Shown: positions 2,933-21,501 of the stretch, in pieces
Layout of the letters: each line of letters starts with the position of its first letter
How positions within the stretch are numbered: position 1 is the first letter of the stretch
IMG/VR virus record: IMGVR_UViG_3300036857_000208
Location: 1-23,324 of that record
DNA length: 23,324 bases
Reading direction: 5' to 3' (one strand)
Source of the DNA: a virus
Notes under the pieces: model-generated
Databases searched by the model: none
What the model was told of the DNA's origin: nothing
What the model saw: the letters and a program-made list of their open reading frames with translations, nothing else
Program-made: the position numbers and the translations under genes

Positions 2933-2950
2933 AACCGCCCCCGGTTTTTT
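2933..2950 (+). terminator. Intrinsic terminator closing the lysis operon
   Basis: AACCG (2933-2937), loop CCCC, CGGTT (2942-2946), then TTTT. The stem can be extended by a flanking CCACA/TGTGG pair (2929-2933 and 2952-2956). It starts 5 nt after the last small lysis ORF and precedes the terminase, so it separates lysis from packaging transcription. Confidence 0.75.
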
Positions 2951-2970: not shown

Positions 2971-3038
2971 GCGCCACTTCCGGTGACGTTTCCCCCCGAT
3001 CCGCCTGCTTCGCCGTAGCCTTGGCGGGGTAGTGGCGC
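2971..3038. repeat. 8-bp inverted repeat bracketing the terminase leader; candidate cos/pac region
   Basis: GCGCCACT (2971-2978) and AGTGGCGC (3031-3038) are perfect inverted copies 52 nt apart; the right copy covers the GTG start of the terminase gene. The GC-rich interval between the lysis terminator and the terminase has no ORF and is where cos or pac sites often sit. The packaging role is inferred from position only. It could equally sequester the terminase start codon in mRNA. Confidence 0.35.
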
Positions 3039-4783
3039 ATCGGGCGTACTCGAGCAACTATCGGCGCGCGAAGGCGCTGCTGCTCGACCCGCCGGTGCCG
3101 TGTGCCCACTGTCGCCGCCGGGTCGCGACGACCTTGGATCACGATCCGCCGTTGGCGATGCACGTCCACCGCGGCGACGGCAACTGCTGCCGGCTGGTGC
3201 CGTCGTGCGAGGAATGCAACCGCCGCGGCGGGATCATGGTCCACAACGGCAGCTGGCGGCCCGGCGTCGAGCTCGCCTCGCTCGAGCCCGAGCCCGAGCG
3301 GCCCGGGATCCCGGTCTCGGACAGCTGCTGGCGGGTGCCGTGGCTGAAGGGGCTGCGGCGGCCGCCGAGGGACGCGGTCTGGCCCAGGTTCATGACCGTC
3401 CCGCACCCCAGGGCGGTCGGCTCGCTGGGGCGCGAGTTCTGCCGCTGGGCCGAGCGCAGGTCGGGCCGACCGTTGCGCTGGTGGCAGCGGCTGGTCGCCG
3501 CGCGGTTGCTCGAGGTCGATCGCGACGGCCGGCTTGTCTGGGAGACCGCCGTGATCACGACCGCCCGCCAGGTCGGCAAGTCGTGGCTGCTGCGAGAGCT
3601 CTGCCTGTGGCGCATGCACCAGGGCGAGCGCTTCGGCGAACCCCAGGATGTGCTGCACACCGGCAAGGATCTGGCGATCTGCAAAGAGGTCCAGCGGCCG
3701 GCCCGTATCTGGGCGAAAGCGCGGGCGCCGGACTACCGGGTGCGCGAGGTCAACGGCCAGGAGGAGATCGAGCTGACCGCCGACGGCTCCAGGTGGATGC
3801 TGCGCGCGAAAGAGGCCGTGTACGGCTACTCGGCCGGGCTCGGTGTCGTCGACGAGAGCTGGCGCGTCAGGGCCGCATCGGTTGACGAGGGGTTGACGCC
3901 GACGATGGCCGAGCGCGAGCAGCCGCAGCTGCTGCTGGTCTCGACCGCGCACCGCAAGGCGACGGCGCTGATGCTCGAGCGGCGCCAGATCGCCCTGGCC
4001 GGGCTCGACATTGGTGACGGCGATCTGCTGCTGGAGTGGTCGGCCCCGATCGGGGTCGAGCTCGACGACCCGGCGGGCTGGCGGCAGGCCTCGCCGCACT
4101 GGTCGCCCCGCAGGGAGCGGCTGATCGCCAAGGCGCACCAGAAGATGCTGGCCGGCGAGCTCGAGGACCCGGAAGAGCCGGACCCGGTCGAGAGCTTCAA
4201 GGCGCAGTGGCTAAACATGTGGCCGCGCAAGCTCTCGGAGCCGGCGGGGGCGACGGAGCCGCTGCTGCCGGAGGGTGTCTGGGCCGGGCTGGCCGAGCCG
4301 GGTGTCGGGGGCGACGGGCCGATCTGGGTCGGGCTCGAGGACGACTACGGCATGGGTGCCGCGGTCGCCTGCGCGCGCCGGTTGGATGACGGCCGGCTCG
4401 AGGTTGACGGCTGGCTGCGCGCCGACTGGGACTCGGCGATCGCCGGCGTCGAGCAGCTCGCCCAGATCTGGCCGATCCGCCAGCTCGCCGTCGGCGCCAG
4501 CCTGGTCGACCGCATCCCGCCGGGGTTGCGCGGCATGGCCGAACCGAGGGGCGGCGCCCAGACGCGGGCCGGGCTCGCGCTGCTCAGAGACTTGGCGTTG
4601 TCGGGCCAGGTCGTGCACGACGTGACGACCGCGGAGCTCGACCAGACGCTCGCGCTGGCCACGGTCAGAGAGGCACCCACGGGCCTGTTCCTGTTGGCGA
4701 AGGGGCCGACGCACCTGGTCAGGGCGCTGGTCTGGGCGCTCGCCGGCGCGCACCGGCCGGTCCCGGTGCCGGCGGTCTGGTGA
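3032..4783 (+). CDS. HNH endonuclease - terminase large subunit fusion
   Basis: 583 aa. Residues 24-67 form an HNH nuclease: C24-x2-C27, L-D36-H37-D-P-P, H44, C59-x2-C62-N63. After a linker, residues about 145-330 are the terminase ATPase: Q-motif WWQ (150-152), Walker A TARQVGKS (K183), Walker B GVVDES (D274, E275) and an STA coupling motif near 305. Residues about 430-560 correspond to the RNase H-like nuclease; E436-D437-D438 sits at the first acidic position, while later acidic positions are hard to place (AVGAS at about 486-490, HLVRALVWAL near the end). It should translocate and cut concatemeric DNA into proheads. GTG 3032 follows GGCGGGG. No small terminase gene is evident nearby. HNH genes are known as separate neighbours of terminases in cos phages; here they are one frame. 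Confidence 0.9.
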   Translation: MAHRAYSSNYRRAKALLLDPPVPCAHCRRRVATTLDHDPPLAMHVHRGDGNCCRLVPSCEECNRRGGIMVHNGSWRPGVELASLEPEPERPGIPVSDSCWRVPWLKGLRRPPRDAVWPRFMTVPHPRAVGSLGREFCRWAERRSGRPLRWWQRLVAARLLEVDRDGRLVWETAVITTARQVGKSWLLRELCLWRMHQGERFGEPQDVLHTGKDLAICKEVQRPARIWAKARAPDYRVREVNGQEEIELTADGSRWMLRAKEAVYGYSAGLGVVDESWRVRAASVDEGLTPTMAEREQPQLLLVSTAHRKATALMLERRQIALAGLDIGDGDLLLEWSAPIGVELDDPAGWRQASPHWSPRRERLIAKAHQKMLAGELEDPEEPDPVESFKAQWLNMWPRKLSEPAGATEPLLPEGVWAGLAEPGVGGDGPIWVGLEDDYGMGAAVACARRLDDGRLEVDGWLRADWDSAIAGVEQLAQIWPIRQLAVGASLVDRIPPGLRGMAEPRGGAQTRAGLALLRDLALSGQVVHDVTTAELDQTLALATVREAPTGLFLLAKGPTHLVRALVWALAGAHRPVPVPAVW

Positions 4784-4810
4784 AACCTTTTGGGCCCGCT
4801 GCCGATAGAT

Positions 4811-5107
4811 ATGGGTGTGAGGATCGTCCTGATAGCCGTGCTCGCCCTGCTGGTCGCGGCCCCCGCCGCCATGGCGGCGCCCGGCCCGTACCGCACCGAC
4901 GAGCAGGCCGCCCGCTATCTCGAGCGTGTGCGCGGCGGCTGGGCGTACTGCGTCAACGGCTACTACAGCCACACCGAGCAACGCAGCGGCCGCCACTTCC
5001 CGCGACGCGGCGGCAACCGCTTCCGCAGCTTCGTCTGCTCGACCGGCGGCGGCGATCTCTACGTCCGCACCCGCTTCGGCCGTTGGGCCGTCGTGCGCGA
5101 CCGCTGA
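4811..5107 (+). CDS. Secreted small two-cysteine protein (possible moron)
   Basis: 98 aa from ATG 4811 (GTG 4817 is an alternative). A clear signal peptide is present: basic start MGVR, hydrophobic core IVLIAVLALLVAAPA, and an A-x-A-type site around residues 20-23 (AMAA). The mature part is about 75 aa, basic, with two cysteines (C47, C76) that could form a disulfide outside the cell. It interrupts the packaging genes between terminase and portal, where no morphogenesis function needs a secreted protein, so it may be a cargo gene altering the host surface or blocking superinfection. An AT-richer stretch (4784-4812, containing TTTTGGG and TAGATA) precedes it and may hold its own promoter. Function not recognised. 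Confidence 0.72.
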   Translation: MGVRIVLIAVLALLVAAPAAMAAPGPYRTDEQAARYLERVRGGWAYCVNGYYSHTEQRSGRHFPRRGGNRFRSFVCSTGGGDLYVRTRFGRWAVVRDR

Positions 5108-5124
5108 TCTAGACCGGCCTCCGG

Positions 5125-5139
5125 GTCATACGTCATACT
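5125..5139 (+). promoter_or_regulatory. Tandem GTCATAC and -10-like CATACT before the portal gene
   Basis: GTCATAC occurs twice in tandem, and the second copy contains CATACT (5134-5139), a fair -10 hexamer match, 10 nt before the portal GTG. There is no good -35 or Shine-Dalgarno. A near-leaderless start, common in actinobacteria, is possible. Weak evidence. Confidence 0.3.
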
Positions 5140-5149
5140 CGCCGGTGCC

Positions 5150-6403
5150 GTGCGGTTCCTGGAACGGTCGATTCGCCCGCCGGACGACATAGTCCCCAAC
5201 CCGAACGACCCCGCCAGCGTCCCGCCCTCCACCGTCGGCCCCGACCAGCTGGTCACCCCGGGCGACCCCCACGGCCTCGTCATCGAAGGCCCCGACAACC
5301 CCGCCAGCCCGCCCCCGCGCATCCTCCCCAGCGCCTGGTCGGGCTGGCCGGCCGACTGGTGGCCGCCCGCCTGGGGCAACCGCCGCCAGGCGTTGACCGA
5401 CACCGCCTGGGCCTGCCTCGACCTCAACTCGAGCGTCATGGCGACAATGCCCCCGTACCTCGTCGGCGGCTCGGACCCCGACAGCGGCTGGCTCGCCAAC
5501 CCCGACCCCGACCTCTACACGTCCTGGGAAGAGTTCGCCAAGCAGCTCTTCTGGGACTACCAGCTCGGCGAGGTCTTCGTGATCGCCACCGCCCGCTACG
5601 CGACCGGCTGGCCGGCCCGCTTCCACGTCGTGCCCGCCTGGGCGGTCAACGTCGAGATGGACGGCGGCAGGCGCTTCTACTCCATCGGCAGCGTCAACGT
5701 CACCCCGGACATGCTCCACATCCGCTACCAGTCGAGTGTGGACGACGCCCACGGCCATGGCCCGCTGGAGGTCGGCCGCGCCAGGATGGTCGCCGCCGAC
5801 GTGCTGGTCCGCTACGCCTCGAGCTTCGTCGCCGGCGGCGGCATCCCGACCAGCGTGCTCGCGCACCCGGAAGAGCTGACCGCCAAGCAGGCCGCCGACC
5901 TGCAGGCCCAGTGGGTGCAGGCCAGGTTGTCGAAGCTGGGCGAGCCGGCCGTGCTCTCGGGCGGGGTCACCTTCGAGGCGATCCAGGCGAGCCCGAAGGA
6001 CATGGCGCTGGTCGAGCTCGCCGAGCTGACCGAGGCCCGCATCGCCGTGCTGCTCGGCGTGCCCCCGTTCCTGGTCGGGCTGCCGACCGGCGGCGATTCG
6101 ATGACCTACAGCAACGTCTCGAGCCTGTTCGACTACCACTGGCGGGCAGGGCTTAGGCCGAAGGCCCAAGCTGTCATGGCCGCACTCTCCGGCTGGGCGC
6201 TCCCGCGGGGCACCCAGGTGGAGCTCAACCGCGACAGCTACGTCCAGCCCGAACCCTTGGTGAGGGCCCAGACGGCCGAGATCCTCAACCGCATCCGCGA
6301 CCAGCAGGGCAACCCGGCGCTGACCGTCGAAGAGATCCGGGCCGGCGAGCGTCTCACGGTCGCCGGCGCCGCCGGTCTCACACCCCAGGAGGTAGCCCCA
6401 TGA
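5150..6403 (+). CDS. Portal protein (HK97-like)
   Basis: 417 aa. After a proline-rich, probably flexible N-terminus (residues about 10-65), the sequence follows the phage portal family: 'ALTDTAWACLDLNSSVMATMPPYLV' near 79-103, 'SWEEFAKQLFWDYQLGEVFVIA' in the wing region, 'HIRYQSSVDDAHGHGPLE', and 'LAELTEARIAVLLGVPPFLVG' leading into the long helix. It forms the dodecameric DNA channel at one vertex of the capsid. It precedes the protease with an ATGA overlap, the standard HK97 order. GTG 5150 is the first usable start, with no strong RBS. Confidence 0.93.
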   Translation: MRFLERSIRPPDDIVPNPNDPASVPPSTVGPDQLVTPGDPHGLVIEGPDNPASPPPRILPSAWSGWPADWWPPAWGNRRQALTDTAWACLDLNSSVMATMPPYLVGGSDPDSGWLANPDPDLYTSWEEFAKQLFWDYQLGEVFVIATARYATGWPARFHVVPAWAVNVEMDGGRRFYSIGSVNVTPDMLHIRYQSSVDDAHGHGPLEVGRARMVAADVLVRYASSFVAGGGIPTSVLAHPEELTAKQAADLQAQWVQARLSKLGEPAVLSGGVTFEAIQASPKDMALVELAELTEARIAVLLGVPPFLVGLPTGGDSMTYSNVSSLFDYHWRAGLRPKAQAVMAALSGWALPRGTQVELNRDSYVQPEPLVRAQTAEILNRIRDQQGNPALTVEEIRAGERLTVAGAAGLTPQEVAP

Positions 6404-7011
6404 GCGAAGACGGCCGGCTCGATCTGCGCTCGTTCGAGAACGACCCCGCCTGGCAGCGCAAGGCCGAACTCGTCGGCGTCAACTACCCCGAGCGCATCAT
6501 CGAGGTCGTCGTCATGCCCTACGAGCAGGAGACGCTCGTAGGCTGGGAAGGCCGCATGGTCAAGGAAACGATCGAGCGCGGCTCGTTCGACGGCATCGAA
6601 CGCAGGGCCAACCGCGTCAGGGCCAACCGCGACCACGACGAGGCGCGCACCTTCGGCCGCGCCTGCGCCTTCCACCCCAAACGCGACGAGGGCCTTGTCG
6701 CCGAGATCAAGGTCGCGCGCACCCAGCTCGGCGACGAGACGCTCGAGCTCGCCGAGGACGGCTGCCTCGACGCCTCGGCCGGCTTCGTGCCGATGGCCGG
6801 CGGGCTGCGCTGGCTCAACCGGCAGGCCTACCGCATCACCAAGGCCTGGCTCAGACACATCGCCCTGGTCCCCGAACCCGCCTACCCCGCCGCCCAGGTG
6901 CTCGCCGTCCGCAACGGCCAGCGCGCGAGCTCGGCGACGCCGAACCTGGACGCCTGGCGCGCGACGCTGCTGGAGGACCATGTAGCATCCGACCCGGCTC
7001 TCAACCGCTGA
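6400..7011 (+). CDS. Prohead maturation protease (HK97 U35-type)
   Basis: 203 aa. Landmarks of the S78/U35 herpes-type assemblin fold are present: 'VKETIERGSFDG' near 54-65, the catalytic His in NRDHD (H79), 'RTFGRA', and the catalytic Ser in LDASAGF (S126), then 'HIALVPEPAYPAAQVLAVR'. It would cleave the N-terminal delta domain of the capsid protein after prohead assembly. A strong AGGAGG lies 8 nt before ATG 6400, which overlaps the portal stop by 4 nt. Confidence 0.93.
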   Translation: MSEDGRLDLRSFENDPAWQRKAELVGVNYPERIIEVVVMPYEQETLVGWEGRMVKETIERGSFDGIERRANRVRANRDHDEARTFGRACAFHPKRDEGLVAEIKVARTQLGDETLELAEDGCLDASAGFVPMAGGLRWLNRQAYRITKAWLRHIALVPEPAYPAAQVLAVRNGQRASSATPNLDAWRATLLEDHVASDPALNR

Positions 7012-20975: not shown

Positions 20976-21238
20976 ACACCTGCCGGACCTGCGGCGCCCG
21001 CATCCTCTGGGCCATCAGCTCGAACGGCCGGCCGATCCCAGTCGACCTCGACCCCGACGAGCACGGCAACCTGGCCCTGGTCGAGGGCACCGGCGTCGGG
21101 CGGCTCGCGATCGTCCGCACCCGCCGCGAGCTCGACGACGCCCGCCTCGAGGCCTTGGCCGCCGGCGAACCCGAGCCGCTCTACCACCGAGCCCACTTCG
21201 CCAGCTGCCCCGACGCCAACCTCCACCGCCGCCGATGA
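20972..21238 (+). CDS. Small Zn-finger phage protein next to RusA
   Basis: 88 aa from GTG 20972 (GTGA overlap with rusA). The N-terminus 'CRTCGARILWAISSNGRPIPVDLDPDEHGNLALV' and the C-terminal 'RAHFASCPDA' form a recurrent actinophage family with C-x2-C near the start and H-F-x-x-C-P near the end, which probably bind one zinc between them. It is commonly encoded beside RusA and replication genes; function unknown. The end overlaps the next gene by ATGA. Confidence 0.78.
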   Translation: MNTCRTCGARILWAISSNGRPIPVDLDPDEHGNLALVEGTGVGRLAIVRTRRELDDARLEALAAGEPEPLYHRAHFASCPDANLHRRR

Positions 21239-21501
21239 TCGGCGCGCTGCTCACCGCCCGCGAAGTCGCCGGCCACCTCGGCGTCGCCCCCAAGACCGTG
21301 CTCGCCTGGACCCGCCGCGGCCAACTCCCCGCCATCCGCCTCCCCTCCGGCCAGCTGCGCTACCCCGCCGACGAACTCAACGACTGGCTCGAGCAGCGGG
21401 CGACGCCCAGACGGGGAGAGTCACCCACCCCGCACGACGCCGCCCGCCGCGGGCTGACGCTAGCATCGCTTCGGTCACCCACCCCCGAAGACGAGGAGTA
21501 G
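21235..21501 (+). CDS. Excisionase-like HTH protein (candidate recombination directionality factor)
   Basis: 88 aa. Residues 6-53 are a MerR/excisionase-type winged HTH: 'LTAREVAGHLGVAPKTVLAWTRRGQLPAIRLPSGQLRYPADELNDWL', with the usual T-x-x-E-V-A ... V-x-x-W-x-x-x-G-x-L-P ... R-x-x-x-x-E-L-x-x-W. The remaining 35 residues are charged and disordered. It ends 3 nt before the integrase on the same strand, the standard Xis-Int layout. It should bind near attP and favour excision. A general regulator is the alternative. Confidence 0.82.
   Translation: MIGALLTAREVAGHLGVAPKTVLAWTRRGQLPAIRLPSGQLRYPADELNDWLEQRATPRRGESPTPHDAARRGLTLASLRSPTPEDEE

Follow-up and report, generated by a model that had tools for sequence, protein, structure and literature searches.

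The window, an IMG/VR record of 23,324 bases, encodes a large terminase (TerL) with a nuclease-like domain built into the same polypeptide, an arrangement shared by a large group of small viruses of soil actinobacteria. A single 583-residue chain consists of an N-terminal His-Me finger (HNH/endonuclease VII-like) domain followed by a TerL of the HK97 type. Endolysins, portal, protease, capsid and tail genes and an integrase are recognised in the record, which is a small temperate siphophage-like genome. The fused gene is best explained as the TerL gene of a small, temperate cos phage of actinobacteria, and its HNH domain is probably the main nuclease that acts at cos. The features of the fused gene and of the region before it are listed in Table 1.

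Table 1. Features of the HNH-TerL gene and the upstream region (window positions).
Feature	Position	Strand	Description
T6 element (GGTTTTTTCTG)	2945-2950	+	conserved; lies about 40-45 nt before the pyrimidine tract
Inferred cos end	2977-2997	+	left terminus with its predicted 5' end near 2977 (CTTCCGGTGACG), followed by the TTTCCCCCC tract at 2989-2997
HNH-TerL fusion	3032-4783	+	single frame, 583 aa, GTG start
Type-A His-Me finger (HNH/endonuclease VII-like) domain	3089-3229	+	aa ~20-66; C24xxC27, D36-H37, H44, H46, C59xxC62-N63
Linker	3230-3325	+	aa ~67-98; partly low-confidence in the model; HNH types exchanged here between close relatives
TerL ATPase	3326-4231	+	Walker A R179-G182-K183-S184, Walker B D274-E275, S304-T305-A306; no variation across the 78 rows
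TerL RNase H-fold nuclease domain	4304-4756	+	aa ~425-575; lacks the canonical D/D/D set (E436; V487/G488; H561)

The frame is open from position 2987, and GTG at 3032 is the earliest start codon in it. The original prediction placed a set of HNH motifs and a set of terminase motifs in this one frame, and translation bears out every residue named, with AVGAS at residues 486-490 and HLVRALVWAL at residues 561-570. A Pfam scan of the whole protein returned no match at E values up to 1; the two parts are therefore assigned to HNH and TerL from motifs, from the profiles of relatives and from structure. The large-terminase family phrog_9 of PHROG matches residues 118-458 (E=3e-33). Weak and local matches to dUTPases in a PDB sequence search were taken as chance. 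A short ORF with a signal-peptide-like start, judged by eye, directly follows TerL at about 4812-5107.

Relatives were collected through an IMG/VR protein search, which gave 16, and an alignment search, which gave 258, of which 80 were kept; some contigs occur in both, and the counts are of distinct proteins. Bacterial genomes were also searched and contain prophage relatives in Nostocoides and Nocardioides. A long N-terminal part is present in 86 distinct proteins, two of which (L068 and L094) are cut by the contig end, leaving 84 complete N-termini. The HNH motif lies in frame in 82 of these 84 by pattern, and in L013 also, by eye. Single-frame fusions of the kind originally proposed therefore occur beyond the window, in environmental contigs and actinobacterial prophages. 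The exception is L104, a prophage of Nocardioides alcanivorans (4474-6461), in which the HNH (4474-4971) is read in a different phase from the TerL gene that it overlaps; this is the clade's only unfused, or else frameshifted, member. Among 392 genomes sampled from the order to which Nocardioides belongs, 18 have a relative, most with the HNH motif in the same frame. A lost stop or sequencing error between the two domains, a doubt attached to the original prediction, is rejected because the uninterrupted fused frame recurs in many independent contigs and in bacterial genomes. Among INPHARED isolates, none matched the window protein or the L016 protein at 80% cover, and neither the L102 protein nor the type-A HNH had a match; these searches used fusion proteins and an HNH domain of this clade, and fusions on unrelated TerL families lie outside their scope. 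No description of an HNH-TerL fusion was found in the literature searched, which did not include Kala et al. 2014.

The fused HNH domains are of two types. Type A, found in the window, reads C..C-DHxPP-MHxH-CCRLxPSCxxCN, and type B reads CxRC-WDLGH-GPEHxxCN. C24, C27, D36, H37, P39, P40, H44, H46, C59 and C62 are invariant in the 32 type-A relatives, and N63 is nearly so. The closest Pfam model for type A is Endonuclease_7, likewise a His-Me finger nuclease family, which matches 10 of the 32 members (best E=0.0015); a Pfam HNH model matches one of 17 relatives (best 0.0028), and the N-terminus of the window protein itself has no Pfam HNH match. In the structural model the domain consists of two strands and a helix, with pLDDT of about 78-89. 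The structure search listed no solved HNH structure for this domain, ATPase and TerL folds dominating the matches, and a PDB sequence search with HNH profiles gave nothing convincing. Profile similarity of type A is weak both to stand-alone HNHs and to type B. Type B shares about 51-62% identity with the stand-alone HNHs encoded last in cos-phage genomes such as Redi (42100-42318 of 42594) and QueenHazel (47640-47819 of 48053), and is closest to the stand-alone HNH genes of mycobacteriophages and Arthrobacter phages at the right, cos-side genome end.

Both HNH types are found on the same TerL. A maximum-likelihood tree of the TerL core needs nine changes between A and B, compared with 24-26 in shuffles, and five or six of the nine are forced by well-supported branches. 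The genes of the sister TerLs L047 (type A) and L073 (type B) share 79% DNA identity downstream from the start of the linker, whereas the parts before it do not align. The HNH module is thus replaced or exchanged at the linker, not lost. In 14 pairs the dN/dS of the HNH codons is 0.06-0.75, mostly below 0.35, and these codons are mostly under purifying selection. Searches of 11 fused records, several of them fragments, with the type-A and type-B domains found exactly one HNH in each, the fused one. A PF01844 search of the same records returned nothing, and this model misses the fused domains too.

Structure prediction from the single sequence was unusable (pLDDT 43), and an AlphaFold model built with a 78-row alignment has a mean pLDDT of 90.9. 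As the original prediction proposed to check, the full-chain model was compared with solved structures, and its best match is the HK97 TerL, 6z6d (Foldseek E 3.6e-21). VIA-align superposes residues 130-573 of the model on residues 1-483 of that chain with a Z of 25.2 and an rmsd of 9.6 over 410 residues. The large whole-chain rmsd probably reflects domain orientation, since the isolated nuclease domains match at an rmsd near 3 over about 160 residues. The model has the two-domain TerL fold with an RNase H-like C-terminal domain, and K183, D274 and E275, invariant in the 78 rows, mark an ASCE ATPase with Walker A and B motifs.

The catalytic residues of HK97 TerL are D302, D388 and D471 (PMC9410871). 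Alignment places D302 at E436. D388 falls at V487/G488, a column left open by one gapped alignment and placed by the model strand 482-488 and the motif VGAS. D471 is predicted to fall at H561 from the end-to-end offset of the structural match; prophage kin have D at position 561 in the motif GRADAIKAA, comparable to GRIDGMVAM in HK97. These positions are based on alignment and strand order, not on residue-level superposition. In the 78 rows, position 436 is E in 75, position 488 is G in 74, and position 561 is H in 67, D in five and E in one. The canonical triad is thus absent, the window lacking two of its three acids and the kin lacking one or two, in agreement with the original remark that the later acidic positions are hard to match. 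Basal kin keep D at 561, and prophage kin keep E and D at the first and third positions. Further acids, D437 (73 of 78), D520, D530 and D537, are well conserved in the nuclease domain, and E436, D437 and H561 could still hold a metal.

The state of the triad was also read in isolated phages, every one of which has an HNH gene detected by PF01844, by the type-B query or by annotation; in three the HNH was detected with the type-B query only, and each of the first six isolates searched has a separate HNH. Several of these genes are remote from the genome end and may be of the homing kind. All three acids are kept in HK97, phiBT1, phi_D3, Mcat15 and Faja, one or two in Cambiare, SM1, Redi, Sephiroth and others, and only the first in phi673, BFK20, Santhid and others. 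By eye, the TerLs of QueenHazel (L159) and Hannaconda (L167) have none of the three, with an HNH gene in the genome. In Arthrobacter phage Faja (L158, 599-2258) the annotation splits TerL into two ORFs that overlap, 599-1678 and 1647-2258; the intact D/D/D nuclease lies in the latter. The idea that the fusion freed the TerL triad to disappear is not supported: the cos isolates phi673, BFK20, Santhid, QueenHazel and Hannaconda lack most or all of it with a separate HNH, and other HNH-bearing phages (the five named as keeping all three acids) retain it. Because actinophages with a separate HNH have also lost the triad, its loss is not special to the fusion and does not appear to have been caused by it. 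The isolate pattern, in a sample where every phage has an HNH and none offers an HNH-free TerL for contrast, fits an HNH that makes the TerL acids dispensable.

The ends of contigs point to a cos end at about 2977, some 55 bp upstream of the HNH-TerL start codon. Among contigs whose start is no more than 260 nt from the first HNH cysteine, 38 have a recognisable pyrimidine tract (TTTCCCCCC or TCTCTC), and 26 of the 38 start 6-15 nt upstream of it; the p-value for this clustering is based on a uniform null and serves as an indication only. The right ends of four near-complete contigs (L031, L064, L066 and L078) lie about 20-22 nt past the conserved T6 element. The same layout is seen at the deposited left ends of several isolated cos actinophages, among them Redi (GTCAGGAATCTCTCCC), Santhid (GTCGGGCATCCCCC) and Schmidt (CCGATCCTCTCCCCCC). 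The spacing from contig start to tract has a median of 11.5 for type A (n=18) versus 7 for type B (n=13), with a Mann-Whitney p of 1.2e-4 that ignores kinship; seven rough A/B neighbour contrasts, hand-chosen from the tree, give 3, 0, 3, 0, 5, 6 and 0, four favouring a spacing difference and three being zero. Six contigs (L030, L032, L052, L061, L063 and L101) begin 18-28 nt before the tract, and several of them have a run rich in purines; such starts would mark the opposite side of a staggered cut or be artefacts of the contig end. Two differing predicted endolysins lie near each other just upstream of the inferred cos, at 499-1227 and 1683-2543.

In the mechanism that we favour on balance, a packaging HNH nuclease that is normally encoded by a separate cos-adjacent gene would here form the N-terminal domain of TerL, so that an HNH would arrive at cos with every TerL subunit in the motor. 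The HNH domain would make the staggered cos cut about 55 bp upstream of its own gene as the main or only cos nuclease, and the C-terminal RNase H fold would be retained mainly as a structural part of the motor. This reading is preferred because the fusion is near-universal, the module is replaced and not lost, mostly under purifying selection and single-copy in the records searched, the triad is absent, the inferred cos adjoins the gene and the spacing from contig end to tract varies with HNH type. It is weakened by HK97, where an HNH coexists with an intact TerL nuclease site (PMC9410871), by the capacity that E436, D437 and H561 could have to hold a metal and the D kept at 561 in basal kin, and by the facts that triad loss is not tied to fusion, that the spacing difference ignores kinship and that cos is placed by contig ends. 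The single chain and the missing triad of the original prediction both stand, and its further step, that this chain took over the cut, fits all the findings and is what we infer. A stronger form is possible but doubtful: the TerL RNase H would be dead and the HNH, as the sole packaging nuclease and with no small terminase adjacent, would also help to choose the cut, so that a swap of HNH type would shift the cut relative to the pyrimidine tract. Such a replacement of the TerL nuclease by an HNH may extend to many isolated actinophages with a separate HNH.

A rather unlikely alternative is that the HNH is an accessory that stimulates the cut, while the TerL RNase H still cuts through E436, D437, H561 or other acids. 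GP74, the HNH protein of HK97, stimulates cos cleavage by TerL in this manner (PMC9410871), and the high conservation of E436, D437, D520, D530 and D537, the E and D kept at triad positions 1 and 3 in prophage kin, and purifying selection on the RNase H domain all agree with retained activity. However, there is no acid at V487/G488 in nearly all members, and the third position is mostly H. The middle acid of the triad is essential in TerLs studied elsewhere, which also counts against an accessory HNH.

It is improbable that the N-terminal domain mainly recognises DNA in place of a missing adjacent small terminase (TerS), with nuclease chemistry secondary. No small-terminase gene adjoining TerL was recognised, and none lies between the inferred cos end and TerL (2977-3032); the sole TerS-like match among the scanned ORFs, an HTH protein at 21235-21501, fits an excisionase better, and the HNH type goes with cos spacing. 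Yet a diverged TerS could have escaped recognition, and in type A the conservation of D36, H37 and N63, which presumably serve as metal and base residues, equals that of the zinc ligands. Least credible is a homing-type nuclease inserted in frame, even though homing-endonuclease-like genes are reported to have a hot spot just before the terminase (PMC10448857): near-universal presence, in-frame replacement in place of loss, purifying selection and the lack of free copies in the searched records all speak against it.

In HK97 cos cleavage is stimulated by the HNH protein, and the active site that does the cutting is difficult to identify. A single chain that combines an intact HNH motif with a TerL lacking the canonical triad opens this question to a direct test, and the HNH swaps that nature has made on one TerL backbone supply matched pairs for asking whether the HNH sets the cut site. 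The results also suggest that the default annotation of TerL as a nuclease may be wrong in many actinophages.

The original prediction of a distinct packaging nuclease design holds for the single-chain form and not for an unrelated design, as the window protein is a variant of the known HNH-assisted cos terminase. Kala et al. 2014 (doi 10.1073/pnas.1320952111) reportedly described phage HNH packaging proteins that work with terminase at cos; such proteins are encoded by separate genes in the isolated phages examined here, whereas the HNH is fused to TerL in the window clade. HK97 TerL (gp2) with GP74 resembles the window in its TerL fold, an HNH encoded at the cos-side genome end and cos packaging, but its HNH is a separate gene (39054-39413) and D302, D388 and D471 are kept, unlike the one chain of the window with its lack of the triad. 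The TerLs of phi673, BFK20, Schmidt, Quenya, Litotes, Santhid, QueenHazel and Hannaconda are distant homologues that lack most of the canonical acids, with an HNH gene elsewhere in the genome; in these eight actinophages, however, HNH and TerL are separate, and a small-terminase or hypothetical gene usually precedes TerL. The cohesive ends of phi673 are 3' overhangs of 13 nt (PMC6132909), and the annotation of BFK20 gives the same. Small-genome actinobacterial siphophages are described with structural gene fusions, protease-scaffold-capsid and similar, and resemble the window in fusing functions in small genomes, the sections consulted noting no HNH-TerL fusion (PMC7302621). In HNH-assisted cos packaging systems the HNH gene is separate and stands beside the terminase, whereas in the window clade the HNH is part of TerL itself and the only copy found in the 11 records searched.
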